Shown here piece after piece: positions 13,163-20,944 of a stretch of DNA of 50,098 bases. How positions within the stretch are numbered: position 1 is the first letter of the stretch; each line of letters starts with the position of its first letter. The notes under the pieces are model-generated. The model searched no databases. It saw nothing but the letters and a program-made list of their open reading frames with translations, and had not been told where the DNA came from. The stretch comes from Candidatus Scatosoma pullicola (GTDB lineage Bacteria; Bacillota; Clostridia; Christensenellales; Borkfalkiaceae): contig DVGN01000072.1 in the NCBI GenBank assembly GCA_018712725.1, positions 1 to 50,098 of the forward strand, written 5' to 3'. The translations under genes were made by a program, and so were the position numbers.

Positions 13163-15775
13163 ATGAAGAAATCAGTTATTGTGACGAGTGCGATCTGTCT
13201 CGCCCTTGCAAGTTCGATGTTTCTGTCGTCTTGCAACCACAACCAGACGGTGAGCAACGAAGACACGGCATTCGTCGTCAGTTCGGAGGCGCTGGACGGC
13301 GTGTTCAACCCCTTCTTCTATACGACGGGGCCGGACGGCACCATCGTGGGGCAGACGCAGATCGGCATGCTTTCCACGGACAAGGAAGGCAAGATCGTCT
13401 ACGGCCAGGACGAACCGTGCGTCGTGGAAAATTATACGATGGAGACGACGGGCAGCAAGGAAGTAAACGGCGAAGATTACGACAACTACTACACCGAGTA
13501 TTGGTTTGCCATCAAAAACGGCATCAAATTCTCGGACGGGAGCGATCTGACCATAGAGGACGTCATTTTCAGCCTGTATGTCCTGCTCGATCCCACCTAT
13601 ACCGGGTCGTCCACGCTGTATTCCACCAACATCAAGGGGCTCGGCGCATACCGCGCGCAGTCCTACGACGAAAACATCCAGGACAACTTCGATTCGTATT
13701 ACGAAGGGTTTGCCGAACTCCGCCTGCAGCCCATTCTCGACTGGGCGCAGAGCGATACCGATAACCAGACGCGCGCGGAGGCGATCGCGGAATTGGAGGC
13801 GATGGACGTCTATCAGAACGTCACGCCCACGGAGGGCAACGGCTATCTCGGCGGCTTCTCTCTGTTCGACTACATTGACCGCGCCAAGGAACTCTTCCGC
13901 GAAGAACTCAATTCCGACTGGACGACGGCTTCCACGACGCTGGTCGGCAATTTTGAAACCGGTTCGGATTATGAAATCAAATATCATTTCACCGAACCCT
14001 GGCAGGTGTTCCTGGCGATGGAAGGGCTTCTTACCTTTGACGACGACAAGGAGTATCCCGACAACGTCGAATGGAACGGTTACGAAAATCCCGCCGACAC
14101 TTCGCAGGAGGCGATGGTCAAACTCGTCTACGATTACTATGTCGGCGACGCGCTGGGCGCGGCGGCGTACAAATCGGGCATTCTGCAGATCGTGGGCGGC
14201 GGCTGGCAGACCTCTTCCAACCTCCTCAACTACGTCAAGAGCGCCGTCATTCAGTCGGCGATCGGCGGAAATAAGATCGTCCGGTATATTGACGGCATCG
14301 CTATCGAAGAGAACGTCTCCTCCATCGGCAGGGCCAATCCCGTCGATCTCGGCGGGACTTACGACGTCCTGAAAATCACGATCGACGGCGTCGACCCCAA
14401 GGCGATTTACAACTTCTCCTTCACCGTCGCCCCCAGCGACTACTATTCCGCGCCCTATTATGAAGTGACCGGAAAGGAGCCGGAGCAGTTCGACTACGCT
14501 TCGGGCAAGGTGGGCGTTCCGTTTGCCGATTCCGATTTCTTCGATCAGCTCCGCCAGATCCAGGTGCCCGTCGGCGCGGGACCTTACAAGGCGACCAACC
14601 GCACGACGGACGTGGGGGACCGCATTCCCGACAAGAGCGAATTTTTCAGCGATAACGTCGTCTATTTCGAACGGAATACTTATTTCGAAACGGTGGGAAG
14701 CGGCCTTTCCAACGCGAGAATCCGGAAGCTCAACTACCAGGTGGTGCCCACCAACCAGCTCTTCGCATCGCTTACCAGCACCGAAACCGTCCATTTCGGT
14801 ACGCCCAACGCGACGGTCGAGAATCTGAATGATTTGTCGAAACTGAAAGACGATTACGGCTACGATCCCGTCACGACGCTCGGTTACGGTTACATCGGCA
14901 TCAACGCGGGGGACATCCCCGACATCCGCATTCGCCGCGCGATCATGTGCGCCTTCGATCCTTCCCTCACCCTCGACTACTACGGCGGCACGGGAACGCA
15001 GCTGGCATCCATCGTCAACCGACCCATGACCTCCAACAGCTGGGCTTATCCGCAGGGCATCGGCGCCTATACGGGCACGGGCAGCGACTATTCCGTCTCT
15101 TCCGATACCTATAACAAGGACATTTCCTATGACGAGACGGGTGCCAAGAGCGCGGAATACGCGAGACAGGCGGGTTATACCAAAAATGCAAACACCGGGC
15201 TTTTGACCAACACGAAGGGCGAAGTGCTGCGGTTTACCTTTACCATCGCGGGCGAGTCGAAGGATCATCCCGCCGCCGACCTCTTCTACAATGCGGAGAG
15301 AATTCTCGAAAGCATCGGTTTCGACATCACGGTGCAGACGGACGGCAGCGCGCTGAGAAAGCTCGCCACGGGCGACCTCACCGTCTGGGCGGCTGCGTGG
15401 AGCTCTACGATCGACCCCGATATGTATCAGGTCTATCACATGGATTCCAACGCCACCTCCACCAATAACTGGGGCTATCCCGAAATCTTCGACGAAGACA
15501 GCACCTACGATTATTGGCTGGAAAAAGAAATCGTGGAAGAACTCAGCGACCTTATCGATGAAGCGAGGGAAATGAACGATCGAGACGAACGTTCGGCTAT
15601 CTATCATCAGTGTCTCGATCTCGTCATGGAGCTCGCCGTCGAATTCCCGACCTATCAGAGAAGCGATCTGTACGTCTGGAACTCCAACTACATCGATTCT
15701 TCCACGCTTGCGGAGACTTCGGCTTACCAGTCGCCGCTGAGCAAAATCTGGGAGGTCAGTTTCGTCGGAAACTGA
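13163..15775 (+). CDS. oppA: Oligopeptide ABC transporter substrate-binding lipoprotein (family 5), oversized
   Basis: This is the extracellular ligand receptor of the importer encoded next to it. The signal peptide ends in a lipobox, FLSSC. Family 5 (SBP_bac_5) features are visible: 'NPFFY' near the N-terminus, 'SDGSDLTIEDVIFSL' (around residue 125-137), 'GAGPYKA' (around 471), and 'IRRAIMCAFDP' in the C-terminal half. At 870 residues it is much longer than the usual 500-600; the extra length lies mostly between the DVIFS and GAGPY motifs, which are about 340 residues apart instead of roughly 100. AGGAGG sits five bases before the ATG. A GC-rich hairpin follows the gene and could stabilise its transcript over the downstream permease genes. 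Ligand is inferred as peptide from the upstream protease and the Opp-type permeases; nickel or sugar ligands cannot be excluded from sequence. Confidence 0.88.
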   Translation: MKKSVIVTSAICLALASSMFLSSCNHNQTVSNEDTAFVVSSEALDGVFNPFFYTTGPDGTIVGQTQIGMLSTDKEGKIVYGQDEPCVVENYTMETTGSKEVNGEDYDNYYTEYWFAIKNGIKFSDGSDLTIEDVIFSLYVLLDPTYTGSSTLYSTNIKGLGAYRAQSYDENIQDNFDSYYEGFAELRLQPILDWAQSDTDNQTRAEAIAELEAMDVYQNVTPTEGNGYLGGFSLFDYIDRAKELFREELNSDWTTASTTLVGNFETGSDYEIKYHFTEPWQVFLAMEGLLTFDDDKEYPDNVEWNGYENPADTSQEAMVKLVYDYYVGDALGAAAYKSGILQIVGGGWQTSSNLLNYVKSAVIQSAIGGNKIVRYIDGIAIEENVSSIGRANPVDLGGTYDVLKITIDGVDPKAIYNFSFTVAPSDYYSAPYYEVTGKEPEQFDYASGKVGVPFADSDFFDQLRQIQVPVGAGPYKATNRTTDVGDRIPDKSEFFSDNVVYFERNTYFETVGSGLSNARIRKLNYQVVPTNQLFASLTSTETVHFGTPNATVENLNDLSKLKDDYGYDPVTTLGYGYIGINAGDIPDIRIRRAIMCAFDPSLTLDYYGGTGTQLASIVNRPMTSNSWAYPQGIGAYTGTGSDYSVSSDTYNKDISYDETGAKSAEYARQAGYTKNANTGLLTNTKGEVLRFTFTIAGESKDHPAADLFYNAERILESIGFDITVQTDGSALRKLATGDLTVWAAAWSSTIDPDMYQVYHMDSNATSTNNWGYPEIFDEDSTYDYWLEKEIVEELSDLIDEAREMNDRDERSAIYHQCLDLVMELAVEFPTYQRSDLYVWNSNYIDSSTLAETSAYQSPLSKIWEVSFVGN

Positions 15776-15853: not shown

Positions 15854-16846
15854 ATGGTCAAATACATCATCAAGAGAATCCTTTACGCGATTCTGATTCT
15901 CTTTTTCGTATCTCTCTTAATCTATATCCTGGTGCGGCTGTTGCCCGCCGACTATATAGACAACAAGTTTGCCCCGCAGCTCGCGCAAGGGAGCATGACG
16001 CAGGCGGACATCGACGCCATCAAGGAAAAATACGGCCTTCTGGACAATTCTTTCTGGGGAATTATTTCGGGCTATTTCACCTGGCTTGGAAATCTGTTCC
16101 GGCTCGATTTGGGTATGTCTTTTAAATTCGAGCGTCCCGTGGCGGAAGTCATCGGCGACTATATGTGGATTTCCTTCGGCATCGCGTTGGTGGCGATGGT
16201 CCTGCAATTCCTCATCGCCATTCCTTTGGGAATTCTGTCCGCCACGCATCAATACAGCCCGCTCGATTACGGCGTTACGGTCTTTACGATGATCGGCATT
16301 TCCCTGCCCTCCTTCTTTTTGGCAACCCTTCTCATCAAGGTGTTCGTGTACGAGCTGGGGTGGATCCCCTCCATCGGCATGGTGGATCCCGGCGCCAGCT
16401 ATACCGGGCTCGCCTATATCGGCGACGTACTTTTGCACTGCATCCTGCCCGTCGCCACGCTCGTCATTATAAACGTCGGTTCCCTCATGCGCTATTCCCG
16501 CACCAATACGCTGGAAGTGCTGAACGCGGACTACGTCCGCACGGCGCGCGCCAAGGGACTTTCCGAACATACCGTCATCTATAAACACGTTTTCCGCAAT
16601 ACCATGATTCCCATCGTCACCATGCTGGCGGGCACTCTGCCCAACCTCTTCGGCGGCGCGATGATCACCGAGCAGGTGTTCGGTCTCGAAGGGATCGGTG
16701 CGAAGGCATATCAGGCGCTCAAAGAAGGGGATATTCCCTTCATCATGGCGTACAATATGTTCCTCGCCATTCTCACCGTCATCGGCACCCTTTTGTCTGA
16801 CCTCGCGTATGCGGTCGTCGATCCTCGCGTCAAGCTGACAAAGTAA
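15854..16846 (+). CDS. oppB: Oligopeptide ABC transporter permease OppB/DppB type
   Basis: A 330-residue inner-membrane permease of the binding-protein-dependent transport family. It has the N-terminal helix typical of OppB/DppB ('IIKRILYAILILFFVSLLIY'), a long extracytoplasmic segment with 'KYGLLDNSFWGIISGYFTWL', and then the conserved core of helices. The EAA loop that contacts the ATPases is visible as 'ADYVRTARAKGLSEHTVIYKH', followed by 'FRNTMIPIVT'. The end, 'LLSDLAYAVVDPRVKL', is a standard OppB C-terminus. Length is normal for the family. A weak GGAG precedes the ATG, and the gene is 12 bases from OppC. It should form the heterodimeric channel with OppC. Confidence 0.93.
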   Translation: MVKYIIKRILYAILILFFVSLLIYILVRLLPADYIDNKFAPQLAQGSMTQADIDAIKEKYGLLDNSFWGIISGYFTWLGNLFRLDLGMSFKFERPVAEVIGDYMWISFGIALVAMVLQFLIAIPLGILSATHQYSPLDYGVTVFTMIGISLPSFFLATLLIKVFVYELGWIPSIGMVDPGASYTGLAYIGDVLLHCILPVATLVIINVGSLMRYSRTNTLEVLNADYVRTARAKGLSEHTVIYKHVFRNTMIPIVTMLAGTLPNLFGGAMITEQVFGLEGIGAKAYQALKEGDIPFIMAYNMFLAILTVIGTLLSDLAYAVVDPRVKLTK

Positions 16847-16858
16847 CAGGAGGGAGTC

Positions 16859-18049
16859 ATGGATAACGAAAACAAAGAATTCAATCAGGATTTCGCAGAA
16901 CAGGCTCCCCGCGCCGAAGCGCTCAAAGAGGCGGAAGAGGCGGAAGAGGCGCGTGTCCGCGCCGCGGAAGAAAGGGGAGAGGGCGCCGAAGCCGCCGCCG
17001 AAATGGAGGCGGAGGAGTCGGTCATGCGGGATGTCCGCATCGTCTCGCCCACCGCGCTCGTATTGAAGCGGTTTTTCCGCTCCCGCCTTTCCCTCATCGG
17101 GCTTGCCATGTTCGTGGTGCTCTTCATCTTCGTCTTCGTCGGTCCCCTGTTCGTGGGCTGGGGAGAGACGGAAGTGGACTATTCGGGCGGCGAAGTCAAC
17201 ATTCAGCGCACGGACGTCACCTTTGTCGGTCCCGACGGCGAAGAGTATACCATCGTACAGGTCAACATGACCCAGACACAGATCAACCGTTTGGCGGACG
17301 CTTTCAGTTACGGCGTCAATTCGGAAGGGGAGACCGTTTTGCACATTCTCGGCACGGACAGCAACGGCATGGACGTGTTCGCGCGGCTCATGTACGGCGG
17401 CAGGGTGTCTTTGACCATCAGCTTTATGGCTGTTATCCTGAATACGCTCCTGGGCATCGTGATGGGCGGGCTGGCAGGCTATTTCGGCAAGTGGGTGGAT
17501 ATGCTCATCATGCGTATCGTCGACGTCATAAACTGCGTCCCCACCCTGCCCATCATGCTCATATTCAGCGCCATCTTGGACGAATACGCCAAGACGTACG
17601 CGTGGATGTATGAGTACCGATTATACATCATCATGGGTCTTTTGACCCTGATCAGCTGGACAGGCACCGCCCGGCTGGTGCGCGGGCAGATTCTCTTCCT
17701 CCGGGAACAGGAATACATGGTGGCGGCGGACGCCCTGGGCATGTCTTCGTCGAGAAAGATTTTCCGGCATCTCGTCATCAACGTCATGCCCCAGCTCATC
17801 GTCTCCATGACTCTTTCCCTCGGCAGTATGATCCTGTATGAGGCGACGCTCGGCTATCTCGGTCTCGGCGTTCCCATCCCGCGCGCGTCGTGGGGCAACA
17901 TGATCTCCACGGCGGAGGATCTCACCATTCTGCAATATCACGGCAACGTGTGGGTGCCCAGCGGTATCTGTATCATTGCGTCCGTTCTGGCGTTCAACTT
18001 TATCGGCGACGGTCTGAGAGACGCGCTCGATCCCAAGATGAAGAGGTAA
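16859..18049 (+). CDS. oppC: Oligopeptide ABC transporter permease OppC/DppC type with acidic N-terminal extension
   Basis: A 396-residue permease, longer than the usual 280-310. The first 55 or so residues are a Glu/Ala-rich, probably helical cytoplasmic extension. The OppC_N helix follows ('LSLIGLAMFVVLFIFVFVG'), then an extended extracytoplasmic segment of roughly 70 residues before 'HILGTDSNGMDVFARLMYG', the classical OppC signature. The EAA loop reads 'EYMVAADALGMSSSRKIFRH' and the protein ends 'NFIGDGLRDALDPKMKR', as expected. A good SD (AGGAGG) lies before the ATG. The core is an ordinary OppC; the N-terminal extension and the enlarged outer loop are the unusual parts and may contact the likewise enlarged binding protein and ATPases. 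Confidence 0.92.
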   Translation: MDNENKEFNQDFAEQAPRAEALKEAEEAEEARVRAAEERGEGAEAAAEMEAEESVMRDVRIVSPTALVLKRFFRSRLSLIGLAMFVVLFIFVFVGPLFVGWGETEVDYSGGEVNIQRTDVTFVGPDGEEYTIVQVNMTQTQINRLADAFSYGVNSEGETVLHILGTDSNGMDVFARLMYGGRVSLTISFMAVILNTLLGIVMGGLAGYFGKWVDMLIMRIVDVINCVPTLPIMLIFSAILDEYAKTYAWMYEYRLYIIMGLLTLISWTGTARLVRGQILFLREQEYMVAADALGMSSSRKIFRHLVINVMPQLIVSMTLSLGSMILYEATLGYLGLGVPIPRASWGNMISTAEDLTILQYHGNVWVPSGICIIASVLAFNFIGDGLRDALDPKMKR

Positions 18050-18053
18050 GCGT

Positions 18054-19490
18054 ATGGAAAAGGAAATGAACAAGCATTATCTCACCAATCGGGAATCGCG
18101 GGCGATCGAAAAGGAAAATCTTCGCCAGATGAAGATGTACGAAAAGAAGAAAAAGGCGAAGGTTCCCGAATCGGAGTACATCTCGCAGATGAAGCGGGAG
18201 GATACGATTATCGAAATCGAAGACCTGCACACCTATTTCTTCACGGACAGCGGCACGGTCAAGGCGGTGAACGGCGTGTCTTTCGACATTCCCGAAGGCT
18301 CCGTCGTCGGCGTCGTCGGGGAGTCGGGCTGCGGCAAGAGCGTCACCAGTCTCGCCATCATGCGGCTCGTTCAGGGTCCGCAGGGGCAGATCGTGTCGGG
18401 TTCCATCCGCTTCAAGTCCTCCGATTTCGTCTATGACGAAAAGGGACAGCCCGTGCCAGTGTACGAGCGTGACGAAAAGGGCGAGATCGTCTACGGCCCC
18501 GCCCCCGTCCGCGACAAAAAGGGGAACATCAAGACGGAGCCCAAGCAGAAAACGGATCTGAACGGGGAGCCGATCTTCGAAGAAAAGAACGGGAAGAGGG
18601 TACCCGTGTACGAGACGGATGAGAAGGGCGAGATCGTGCGCGTCCCCAAAGTCAAGCGGGACAAAGAGGGCAACCCCGTGTCCGAGCCCGTGCAGAAATG
18701 CGACGAACGCGGCTTCCCCGTGTTCGAGACGGAACCCAAGGTGTTCGACATCGCCAAGATGCCCATGAGCGAGATGCGCAAGCTCCGCGGCAAGGAGATC
18801 TCCATGATTTTCCAGGAGCCGATGACTTCGCTCAATCCCGTCTTTACCGTCGGGAATCAGCTGGATGAGGCGATTCTGATAAACAATCCGGGCGTCACGA
18901 ACGAGCAGGCGAAAAAACGCAGCATCGAGATGCTCGATCAGGTGGGCATCGCGATGCCCGATCAGGTGTATCTCAAATACCCGCACGAGCTGTCCGGCGG
19001 CATGCGCCAGCGCGTCATGATCGCCATGGCGCTCTCCTGCAATCCCCGCCTCATTATCGCGGACGAGCCGACGACGGCGCTCGACGTCACCATTCAGGCG
19101 CAGATCCTCGAACTGCTGAAAGAGCTGAAAAACAAGATCAACGGTTCGATCATGCTCATCACGCACGATCTGGGCGTCATCGCGGGCATGGCAGATTACG
19201 TCGTCGTCATGTATGCGGGGCGGGTGATCGAAAAGGGGACGGTGTACGACATCTTCGACAATCCCCTGCACCCCTACACCGTGGGTCTGCAAAAGTCCAA
19301 ACCCGTCGTCAACCGCGACGTGGAAAGGCTGTACAGCATCCCCGGCAACGTGCCCAATCCCATCAATATGCCTTCGCACTGCTACTTCAAGGACAGATGC
19401 AACCGTTGCTGCGAAAAATGCGGGGGAGAATATCCCGAACTCATTCAGGTTTCCGAAACGCACAGCGTAGCTTGCCATTTATATGAGTGA
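18054..19490 (+). CDS. oppD: Oligopeptide ABC transporter ATPase OppD with a repeat-rich insertion
   Basis: A 478-residue ATPase of the Opp/Dpp importer; relatives are usually 320-350 residues. A lysine-rich N-terminal extension of about 50 residues comes before the nucleotide-binding domain. Walker A is GESGCGKS with Lys95, the Q-loop Gln is at 254 ([12 protein letters not shown]), the ABC signature is LSGGM, Walker B is [12 protein letters not shown], and the H-loop region is ITHDLG. The distance from Walker A to the Q-loop is about 159 residues instead of about 50. The extra 110 residues (about 127-229) are charged and made of roughly seven short units with the pattern D-x-x-G-x-x-V, two of them nearly identical (DEKGEIV). 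The C-terminal peptide-transporter domain has clustered cysteines (CNRCCEKC, then ACH), matching the metal/Fe-S-binding tail of this family. The stop overlaps the start of OppF by eight bases. Confidence 0.93.
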
Positions 19491-20625
19491 ACAGATTATG
19501 AACAAATCAGATAACATTTCCGAAACGAATGAGGAGCTTGCAGAAGAGAGGGCGCCCGAAGCGTCGGTCGCGCCCGAAGGGGCAGACGTCGCGGAAGGGA
19601 CGCCCGACGGCGCGGCGGCGGCCGCTGCTCCGGACGGGGAGGTCGCTTTGGATTACGGGGAGAATATTTTGGAGGTCAGGCACCTGAAAAAATATTTCCC
19701 CGCGGAAAAGAATTTCTGGGGCAAGCCCGTTTCCTTCCTCAAAGCGGTGGACGACGTGAGTTTTGCCATCGAACGCGGTCAGACGCTCGGTATCGTGGGC
19801 GAGTCGGGCTGCGGCAAGACGACGCTCGGGAGGACCATTCTGCGGCTGAATTCCTCTTCGGGAGGGGAGATCATCTTCGAAGGCAGGGATATCGCCAATC
19901 TCAAGCCCTCCGAACTGCGCCCGCTGCGGACGCGGATGCAGATCATCTTCCAGGATCCCTATTCCAGCCTTCCGCCCCGCTATACCATCGGGGATACCAT
20001 TTCGGAAGCGGCGATGATCCATCACATTGTGCCCAAAAGCGAACTGCGCGATTATACGCTGCACATCATGCACCAGTGCGGTTTGCAGGACTATTATTAC
20101 GACCGCTATCCGCACGAATTTTCCGGCGGGCAGCGACAGCGTATCTGCATCGCGCGCGCGCTGGCGGTCAGACCCGAATTTATCGTCTGCGACGAGCCCG
20201 TCTCCGCGCTCGACGTGTCCATTCAGGCGCAGATCATCAATCTGCTCACCGATCTGCAGCGGAAAAACGGGCTGACGTATATGTTCATCTCGCACGATCT
20301 GTCGGTGGTGGAACACATTTCCGATCGGGTGGGGGTCATGTATCTCGGCAGTCTCGTGGAAATCGGGGATAAAAAGGATATTTTCGGAGACCCCGAGCAT
20401 CCGTATACGCAGGCGCTGCTCTCCGCGATCCCCGTGCCCGATCCCCATTACAAGCGCAACCGCATCATTCTGGAAGGGGATATCCCTTCGCCCGTCAATC
20501 CGCCTTCCGGCTGTAAATTCCATACCCGCTGTCCCAAGGCGACGGAACGGTGTTCGGAAGAGGTGCCCGAACTTCGGGATCTCGGCAACGGGCATCTGGC
20601 GGCGTGCCATTTCTGCGGCAGGTAA
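19483..20625 (+). CDS. oppF: Oligopeptide ABC transporter ATPase OppF
   Basis: The 380-residue partner ATPase of OppD. It begins with an acidic, Ala/Pro-rich extension of about 60 residues with low complexity, then the domain starts at 'ILEVRHLKKYFPA'. Walker A is GESGCGKT with Lys112, the Q-loop is 'IIFQDPYSSLPPR', the signature is FSGGQRQR, Walker B is 'FIVCDEPVSALDVSIQ', and the H-loop is FISHDLS. The C-terminal oligo_HPY tail contains four spaced cysteines (CKFHTRC, RC, AAC). The ATG at 19483 overlaps the OppD stop (ATGAGTGA), indicating translational coupling; an ATG at 19498 is a possible alternative start. The N-terminal extension is not needed for the known OppF fold and recalls the acidic tail on OppC. 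Confidence 0.93.
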   Translation: MSEQIMNKSDNISETNEELAEERAPEASVAPEGADVAEGTPDGAAAAAAPDGEVALDYGENILEVRHLKKYFPAEKNFWGKPVSFLKAVDDVSFAIERGQTLGIVGESGCGKTTLGRTILRLNSSSGGEIIFEGRDIANLKPSELRPLRTRMQIIFQDPYSSLPPRYTIGDTISEAAMIHHIVPKSELRDYTLHIMHQCGLQDYYYDRYPHEFSGGQRQRICIARALAVRPEFIVCDEPVSALDVSIQAQIINLLTDLQRKNGLTYMFISHDLSVVEHISDRVGVMYLGSLVEIGDKKDIFGDPEHPYTQALLSAIPVPDPHYKRNRIILEGDIPSPVNPPSGCKFHTRCPKATERCSEEVPELRDLGNGHLAACHFCGR

Positions 20626-20644: not shown

Positions 20645-20944
20645 ATGACGGATAAAAAGAAGCAAAAAGAGGAAAAGAAACGCCGCAAGGCGGAGAATAA
20701 GAAAAAACCGTTTGTCGACGACGGACATACCATCGTCGATATGAACGTGGAAGGTTTTCCCTGGTACGACGAAAACAGGTCGGCCGAAAAGGAAAAGAAA
20801 AATCGCGACAAGCCGACGAAAAAGGAGACTTTCGCGATGATTATGGGCGCCTATAAGGCATACCTGCCCATGTTCCTCATCTGCATCGGCGTGTTCACGA
20901 TCGTCTTTCTCATCCTTTGGCTTCTCCTCCGGATGCAGTATTGA
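20645..20944 (+). CDS. Small single-pass membrane protein at the end of the opp operon
   Basis: A 99-residue protein of unknown family. The first 65 residues are highly charged, with Lys/Glu-rich stretches at both ends of a short Trp/Tyr-containing segment ('EGFPWYDENR'), and are predicted to be cytoplasmic. One hydrophobic helix follows ('MFLICIGVFTIVFLILWLLL') near the C-terminus, so the topology is N-in with almost nothing outside. It starts 19 bases after OppF and ends 23 bases before a strong terminator, so it belongs to the opp transcription unit. A role as an accessory or assembly factor of the importer is an inference from position. The alternative is an unrelated passenger gene. Confidence 0.7.
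   Translation: MTDKKKQKEEKKRRKAENKKKPFVDDGHTIVDMNVEGFPWYDENRSAEKEKKNRDKPTKKETFAMIMGAYKAYLPMFLICIGVFTIVFLILWLLLRMQY

Follow-up and report, generated by a model that had tools for sequence, protein, structure and literature searches.

A D-x-x-G repeat insert in the OppD ATPase of a clostridial peptide importer, a candidate docking or tethering arm

The window analyzed here, a stretch of 50,098 nucleotides from Candidatus Scatosoma pullicola (assembly GCA_018712725.1, contig DVGN01000072.1), carries a peptide importer operon in the order oppA-oppB-oppC-oppD-oppF, followed by the gene for a 99-residue protein with one transmembrane (TM) segment, all on the plus strand (Table 1). OppA begins with a putatively lipoprotein-like sequence, as read by eye. 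The nearest NCBIfam families for OppA, OppB, and OppC were Opp4A, Opp4B, and Opp4C, though the scores of 60.4, 265.5, and 309.8 bits were under the respective cut-offs of 650, 450, and 350 bits. All five opp genes were present in 38 of the 42 stretches fetched for comparison, and the remaining four stretches were cut at contig ends. The OppD protein holds every motif of its class, namely Walker A, the Q-loop, the LSGG signature, DEPTTALD, and the switch histidine, and its oligo_HPY C-terminal domain scored 62.8 bits against a cut-off of 27.1. Its best NCBIfam match, OppD (PRK09473), reached 341.6 bits versus a curated cut-off of 575, with the alignment split around an insert; the name OppD is therefore based on motifs, operon, and fold, and not on membership of the PRK09473 subfamily. 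In addition, four C-terminal cysteines are spaced by 6, 7, and 18 residues, which is the spacing of the 4Fe-4S ligands of Escherichia coli DppD (Cys284/290/297/315) (PMC12136057).

Table 1. Features of the opp locus, in positions of the window; A2 is an alignment of 30 OppD rows
Feature	Position	Strand	Remarks
oppA	13163..15775	+	870-aa peptide-binding protein; SBP_bac_5, E 3.9e-23
oppB, permease	15854..16846	+	BPD_transp_1, E 5.2e-35; best NCBIfam match Opp4B, under cut-off
oppC, permease with acidic N-terminal extension	16859..18049	+	BPD_transp_1, OppC_N; best NCBIfam match Opp4C
oppD, insert-bearing ATPase, 478 aa	18054..19490	+	ABC_tran in two stretches, oligo_HPY
Walker A GESGCGKS, residues 89-96	18318..18341	+	Invariant in A2
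Insert, residues 126-228, ~103 extra aa	18429..18737	+	Seven D-x-x-G turns and one N-G turn
Duplicated module, first copy, residues 135-183	18456..18602	+	Offset 49; borders chosen by the analyst
Duplicated module, second copy, residues 184-228	18603..18737	+	Offset 49; 28/54 identical
Q-loop FQEP, residues 253-256	18810..18821	+	Invariant in A2
Signature motif LSGGMRQR, residues 313-320	18990..19013	+	Invariant in A2
C-terminal cysteines 443, 449, 456, 474	19380..19475	+	Putative 4Fe-4S ligands; nearly invariant in A2
oppF, partner ATPase without insert	19483..20625	+	ABC_tran
99-aa basic one-TM protein	20645..20944	+	No Pfam or NCBIfam family at cut-off

Between the last residue of GESGCGKS and FQEP, the OppD of the window spans 156 residues, whereas the 12 insert-free rows have 52-54, except for one with 61; the original prediction had given the distance from Lys95 of Walker A to Gln254 of the Q-loop as 159 residues, which is exact. 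The extra segment falls within the region predicted for it (18420-18746) and is placed between strand S4 (GSIRF), which it follows immediately, and DIAKMP, so that the antiparallel beta subdomain, named beforehand as the insertion point, is indeed where it lies, and the intact catalytic motifs are in keeping with the suggestion that catalysis could be kept. About seven repeat units had been expected; strict D-x-x-G occurs at residues 128, 140, 154, 168, 189, 203, and 217, a count that none of 5,000 shuffles reached (mean, 0.6; maximum, 4). The insert is near neutral, with 20 K+R and 23 D+E. Aligned to itself at an offset of 49, it scored 132 against a shuffle maximum of 38 (2,000 shuffles), with 28 of 54 positions identical, and the second-best offset was 14, the length of the repeat unit. 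By this self-alignment, the insert is a tandem duplication with a 49-residue period, and two nearly identical 10-residue stretches that had been singled out earlier are one unit seen in both duplicated halves. An assembly or frame artefact was ruled out because three genomes share the 156 spacing and replacement substitutions run well under the synonymous level.

Against the same genome (89.77% complete), the insert alone at E values of up to 10 matched only its own OppD, and a 99-position model (A3) that covers the insert and its flanks, at E values of up to 5 matched its own OppD plus, through a flank, one protein on contig C90. A Pfam search of the insert gave no family near the cut-off, and no match was found among the sequences of solved chains. 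In the open-access PMC literature surveyed, as far as its texts were available to us, no account of such an OppD insert was found.

Among relatives, a search with the whole OppD matched all 61 genomes of the genus and order, at a threshold that passes any ABC ATPase, and the 30 loci returned fell into Walker A-FQEP spacing classes of 156, 113, 99-100, 88, 61, and 52-54. In the 30 rows compared, the insert, where present, always occupies the same site, and the motifs are undamaged. Model A3 matched 62 of 347 genomes in the order of the window (E 1e-12), the best match starting at or before position 42 in 56 of them and at or after position 55 in 6. It matched 9 of 391 genomes in the class, five belonging to the family of the window and four to other families, where the match starts at position 58-59 and the spacing is 52, and 1 of 398 in the phylum sample, the window's own. 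The order, class, and phylum sets are thinned draws from which rare outside members may be missing; as far as sampled, the D-x-x-G array appears peculiar to one order. A scan of genome contigs, among the matches listed (at least 80 loci), gave the insert only in L031 and L032, which are metagenome-assembled genomes of uncultured Clostridia bacterium (isolates Lapin-005 bin42 and Lapin-002 bin1), and the five loci from a scan of viral contigs all matched solely from position 61 onward. We also observed that, in the insert of L032 (L032:6191-7960), ~80 residues of acidic, low-complexity sequence separate two turn-rich modules.

We gathered 92 OppD-type rows, of which 80 carry an insert (spacing 88-390) and 12 do not (52-61), proportions that are not a natural frequency, as the rows came largely through the insert model and contain a duplicate entry (L143, a truncated copy of L175) and a contig-end fragment (L003). 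A spacing of exactly 113 was found in 27 rows from four families and one of 100 in 12 rows, all from one family. The insert-free rows include two (L023 and L026) from the window's own genus, so the transporter can exist without the insert. As 80 of the 92 rows carry an insert and model A3 matched 62 of the 347 genomes of the order, the notion that the insert is unique to the OppD of the window was rejected; orthologs with other numbers of units are common in this order. The original prediction had also raised the question of whether many ordinary OppD proteins of known role share the insertion: many OppD proteins do, and none with a tested role was found.

A quick tree of the OppD core with the insert excluded, which has no fixed root and drew a warning of long branches coming together near L026, required 10 changes among rows with no, short, or long inserts, versus a shuffle mean of 28. 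Nine of the 12 insert-free rows formed one group with a support of 99, and L023, L026, and L188 (long-branched) were placed elsewhere. Such a pattern fits an old gain of the insert, its later growth, and occasional loss. Within the 18 rows with a spacing of at least 143, the best self-offset was 49 in all three rows of the window's clade and 39-41 in 7 of the 15 others (L161, L164, L165, L167, L168, L170, and L172); an offset of 39-41 came second in five further rows, one of which (L160) was hardly above its shuffles. Judged by these offsets, long inserts are products of tandem duplication, with modules specific to lineages.

Substitution patterns in 17 pairs of related genes gave an insert dN/dS of 0.03-0.25 in the 13 pairs with finite dS, and the other 4 were saturated. 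Relative to the core, the insert value was higher by a factor of two or more in 10 of these 13 pairs, similar in 2, and smaller in 1 (L137-L138). No gap interrupted the insert in 16 of the 17 pairs, which is partly a matter of choice, as pairs of near-equal length were picked. Moreover, of 25 hydrophobic positions, 24 keep this character across the three proteins of the 156 type. At the level of codons, then, the insert is under purifying selection, mostly weaker than that on the core.

The fold was approached by AlphaFold2 (AF2) modeling. The whole OppD, modeled from 17 sequences (two besides the window's with an insert), had a mean pLDDT of 86, and the insert in this context showed a 14-residue strand-turn rhythm at block means of 80-92. 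Modeled in isolation from four rows, the insert kept the same rhythm, with a middle part at 83-87 and a mean of only 60. Foldseek of the isolated insert gave no match at an E value of 0.001, the best being 0.88; matches at this value or above (phage baseplate, adenovirus fibre shaft, and others) were too weak and were left unused. AF2 has been reported to over-predict beta-solenoids for perfect repeats (PMC11795689). Charge and hydropathy place 77 of 80 inserts on the disordered side, and the OppD core of the window on the folded side. The beta-hairpin stack originally proposed has in its favor the repeated, confidently predicted strands and turns of the model in context, with the isolated model, the Foldseek search, and the disorder-like composition on the other side. 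Because AF2 was confident in context alone and nearly all inserts are disorder-like, we grade the arm as beta-turn-rich and only possibly folded in context. The alternative foreseen at the outset, an insert both disordered and unconserved in close relatives, fails on conservation, given the low dN/dS and the recurrence of the 113 spacing in four families.

These results bear on a rival explanation, that of tolerated loop growth, in which the tip of the S4-S5 hairpin is permissive and gains, through duplication, turn-rich, mostly flexible sequence of little or no function that is purged only if folding is harmed. Purifying selection on the insert, the nearly gap-free pairs (with near-equal lengths chosen), and the same 113 spacing in four families argue against such growth, as does its one-sidedness, OppF showing no growth at the site (see below). 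The range of spacing over the 92 rows, from 52 to 390, would nevertheless follow naturally from it, as would the disorder-like composition, the faster evolution of the insert than of the core in most usable pairs, the dissimilar segments that OppD of a Mollicutes family carries there, and the inserts in other subunits of the same operons. We consider this explanation somewhat unlikely.

TM-like modules were found in the OppD of a few species. Four strongly hydrophobic segments, called by hydropathy only, lie within the OppD insert of genome G612 (L162:7248-9269), and the OppD of G1408 (L223; a 666-aa open reading frame [ORF]) carries at the same place a module that is 45% identical. A search with the G612 module in 61 genomes of its genus gave five matches, namely itself, G1408, and three weak ones (E 0.003-0.009) in non-OppD proteins (L224, L225, and L226). 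In two other genomes of one genus (L154:7217-9928 and L175:6292-8991), a polytopic domain of ~430 residues, again by hydropathy, is fused before the N-terminal helix of OppD. Such modules and fusions suggest that the arm side may be tied to the bilayer. The arm might then be mainly an anchor that runs toward the membrane and holds OppD there, with the TM-module species as its extreme form, for which the even number of TM-like segments in G612, the related module in G1408, and the polytopic fusions would speak. However, the TM-like cases are confined to four species (two with insert modules and two with N-terminal fusions) and come from hydropathy alone, and the OppD of the window has a near-neutral insert and no hydrophobic segment at the threshold used for G612. 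We hold a membrane-reaching anchor to be unlikely as the main role.

The insert is also one-sided. It was found in none of the 40 OppF-type (FQDP) ORFs of the same fetched stretches, mostly the OppF of these operons, in which the Walker A-FQDP spacing was 42 in 39 and 47 in 1. A placement on one side only, beside the ATP site, and a charged repeat surface would also suit a partner-specific regulatory domain, for instance one that senses the nucleotide or peptide state of the cytosol or docks a peptidase; with neither a Pfam family near the cut-off nor a solved-chain sequence match for the insert, this appears very unlikely.

Growth elsewhere in these operons was noted along the way. Compared with the OppB of the window, which has no insert, 11 of 13 OppB proteins, mostly chosen for length, bear 147-243 extra residues after about residue 62, in the loop behind the first TM helix (L032, L160, L163-L166, L169, L172, L174, L187, and L190), and these additions seem to track one clade more than the length of the OppD insert. 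OppC and OppF vary mainly at the N-terminus, which is in part an effect of stop-to-stop reading of frames; additions inside the protein were seen in the OppC of L189 and the OppF of L188. A homolog of the 99-aa protein follows oppF in 23 of the 42 fetched stretches, whether the OppD insert is present or absent. A tie between this protein and the insert was rejected by eye, as homologs also lie beside the insert-free OppDs of L185, L186, and L188, and the f3 loci that carry large inserts yielded no homolog, two of these stretches ending near oppF. The same genome encodes a second OppD-like ATPase on contig C90 (L205:9012-11282; a 757-aa frame), in which the distance from FQDP to the signature is 451, versus 60 in the OppD of the window, with ~390 extra, helical-looking residues after the Q-loop. 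This extra segment is thus at a different grafting site from the insert in the OppD of the window.

Taken together, we favor, at a probability of roughly 0.5, the reading that the insert is an expandable, non-catalytic docking or tethering arm on OppD. It is favored because of the fixed site, the recurrence of the 113 spacing, purifying selection, the kept hydrophobic positions, one-sidedness, duplication, the AF2 model in context, and the TM modules, and weakened because of the disorder-like composition, the poor isolated model, the lack of a Foldseek match, the faster-than-core change, the insert-free rows, and the small number of TM-like cases. Under the docking or tethering reading, OppD is the ATPase, its catalytic motifs kept, of an Opp4-like peptide importer, and one clostridial order has grafted a beta-turn-rich repeat arm onto it. 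The arm has grown by tandem duplication, in 49-residue modules in the clade of the window and in modules of 39-41 residues in several others, and may extend sideways from the ATPase, where it would offer a non-catalytic surface for docking or tethering. Such a surface could hold OppD in place at the membrane or the permease, or contact a partner, on one flank of the OppD-OppF pair, with normal ATP binding, hydrolysis, and coupling.

Peptide importers are usually treated as a compact five-part machine. In one clostridial order this core is retained, and one of its ATPases has between 0 and ~340 added residues at a single position next to the ATP site. Should the arm prove functional, it would offer a natural length series for how far a nucleotide-binding domain (NBD) can be loaded without loss of coupling, and would allow one to ask what OppD requires along its outer flank that OppF does not. 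The OppD arm is a suitable case for studying the evolution of large additions to ATP-driven pumps.

Comparison with known systems places the insert more precisely. OppD and DppD of the OppBCDF and DppBCDF transporters (E. coli 8z21 and 8z1v; Mycobacterium tuberculosis 8j5q) share the same NBD, the oligo_HPY tail, and the 4Fe-4S-like cysteine spacing, and the OppD of the window superposes on E. coli 8z21_C with a Foldseek TMt of 0.91. In the E. coli chains (327-336 residues), the best-aligned stretch that matches the window OppD from residue 232 starts at chain residue 74-89, so that an array would not fit there; in M. tuberculosis, the 612-residue chain with its two NBDs passes the insert site from residue 75 to 81.

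A large insert at the same place is found in the OppD family NF043079 (MMSYN1_0167, 561 positions) of the Mollicutes. In the five proteins read, Walker A and FQDP lie 266-327 residues apart, and the insert has GSIVY or GSITY on one side and KLRG or QLRG on the other; the Mollicutes label of these five was inferred from the family and from TGA read as Trp. Their inserts are rich in Lys, Leu, Ile, and Asn and look helical by eye, unlike the D-x-x-G array of the window. The OppD of the window scored 285 bits against this family (curated cut-off, 740), its parts aligning to positions 1-73 and 297-535, which flank the large insert, and the cut-off was exceeded in 20 of 247 genomes of the class of G1137. 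Moreover, an OppF-like, not OppD, protein from Acholeplasmatales (L209) has a Walker A-FQDP distance of 328, about 285 above the usual 42, with a charged insert that looks coiled-coil or helical by eye. Since unlike inserts occupy the same site in the Mollicutes OppD and in L209, the S4-S5 site is a shared grafting point, and the Mollicutes-family inserts make it a candidate general one. A tentative and rather doubtful extension is that the S4-S5 hairpin serves as a plug-in socket, at which the arm would lengthen by module duplication and capture domains, including the four-TM module, by which the ATPase would come to have a membrane anchor or a docking arm of its own, placed to one side of an asymmetric ABC importer; no description of an add-on of this kind was found in the open-access PMC literature, as far as its texts were available to us.

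We take the insert itself to resemble RHS/YD and other turn-rich repeats, in which a D-x-x-G turn and then a short strand occur in tandem. Pfam gave no match to the RHS repeat (PF05593) in the window OppD or its insert, and a single sub-threshold match among relatives (L160; 16.3 versus 22 bits). Finally, the regulatory insertion of CFTR, which uses a different loop and has no repeat array, is likewise an extra segment in the antiparallel beta subdomain, that of NBD1, and is carried by one NBD of an asymmetric pair.
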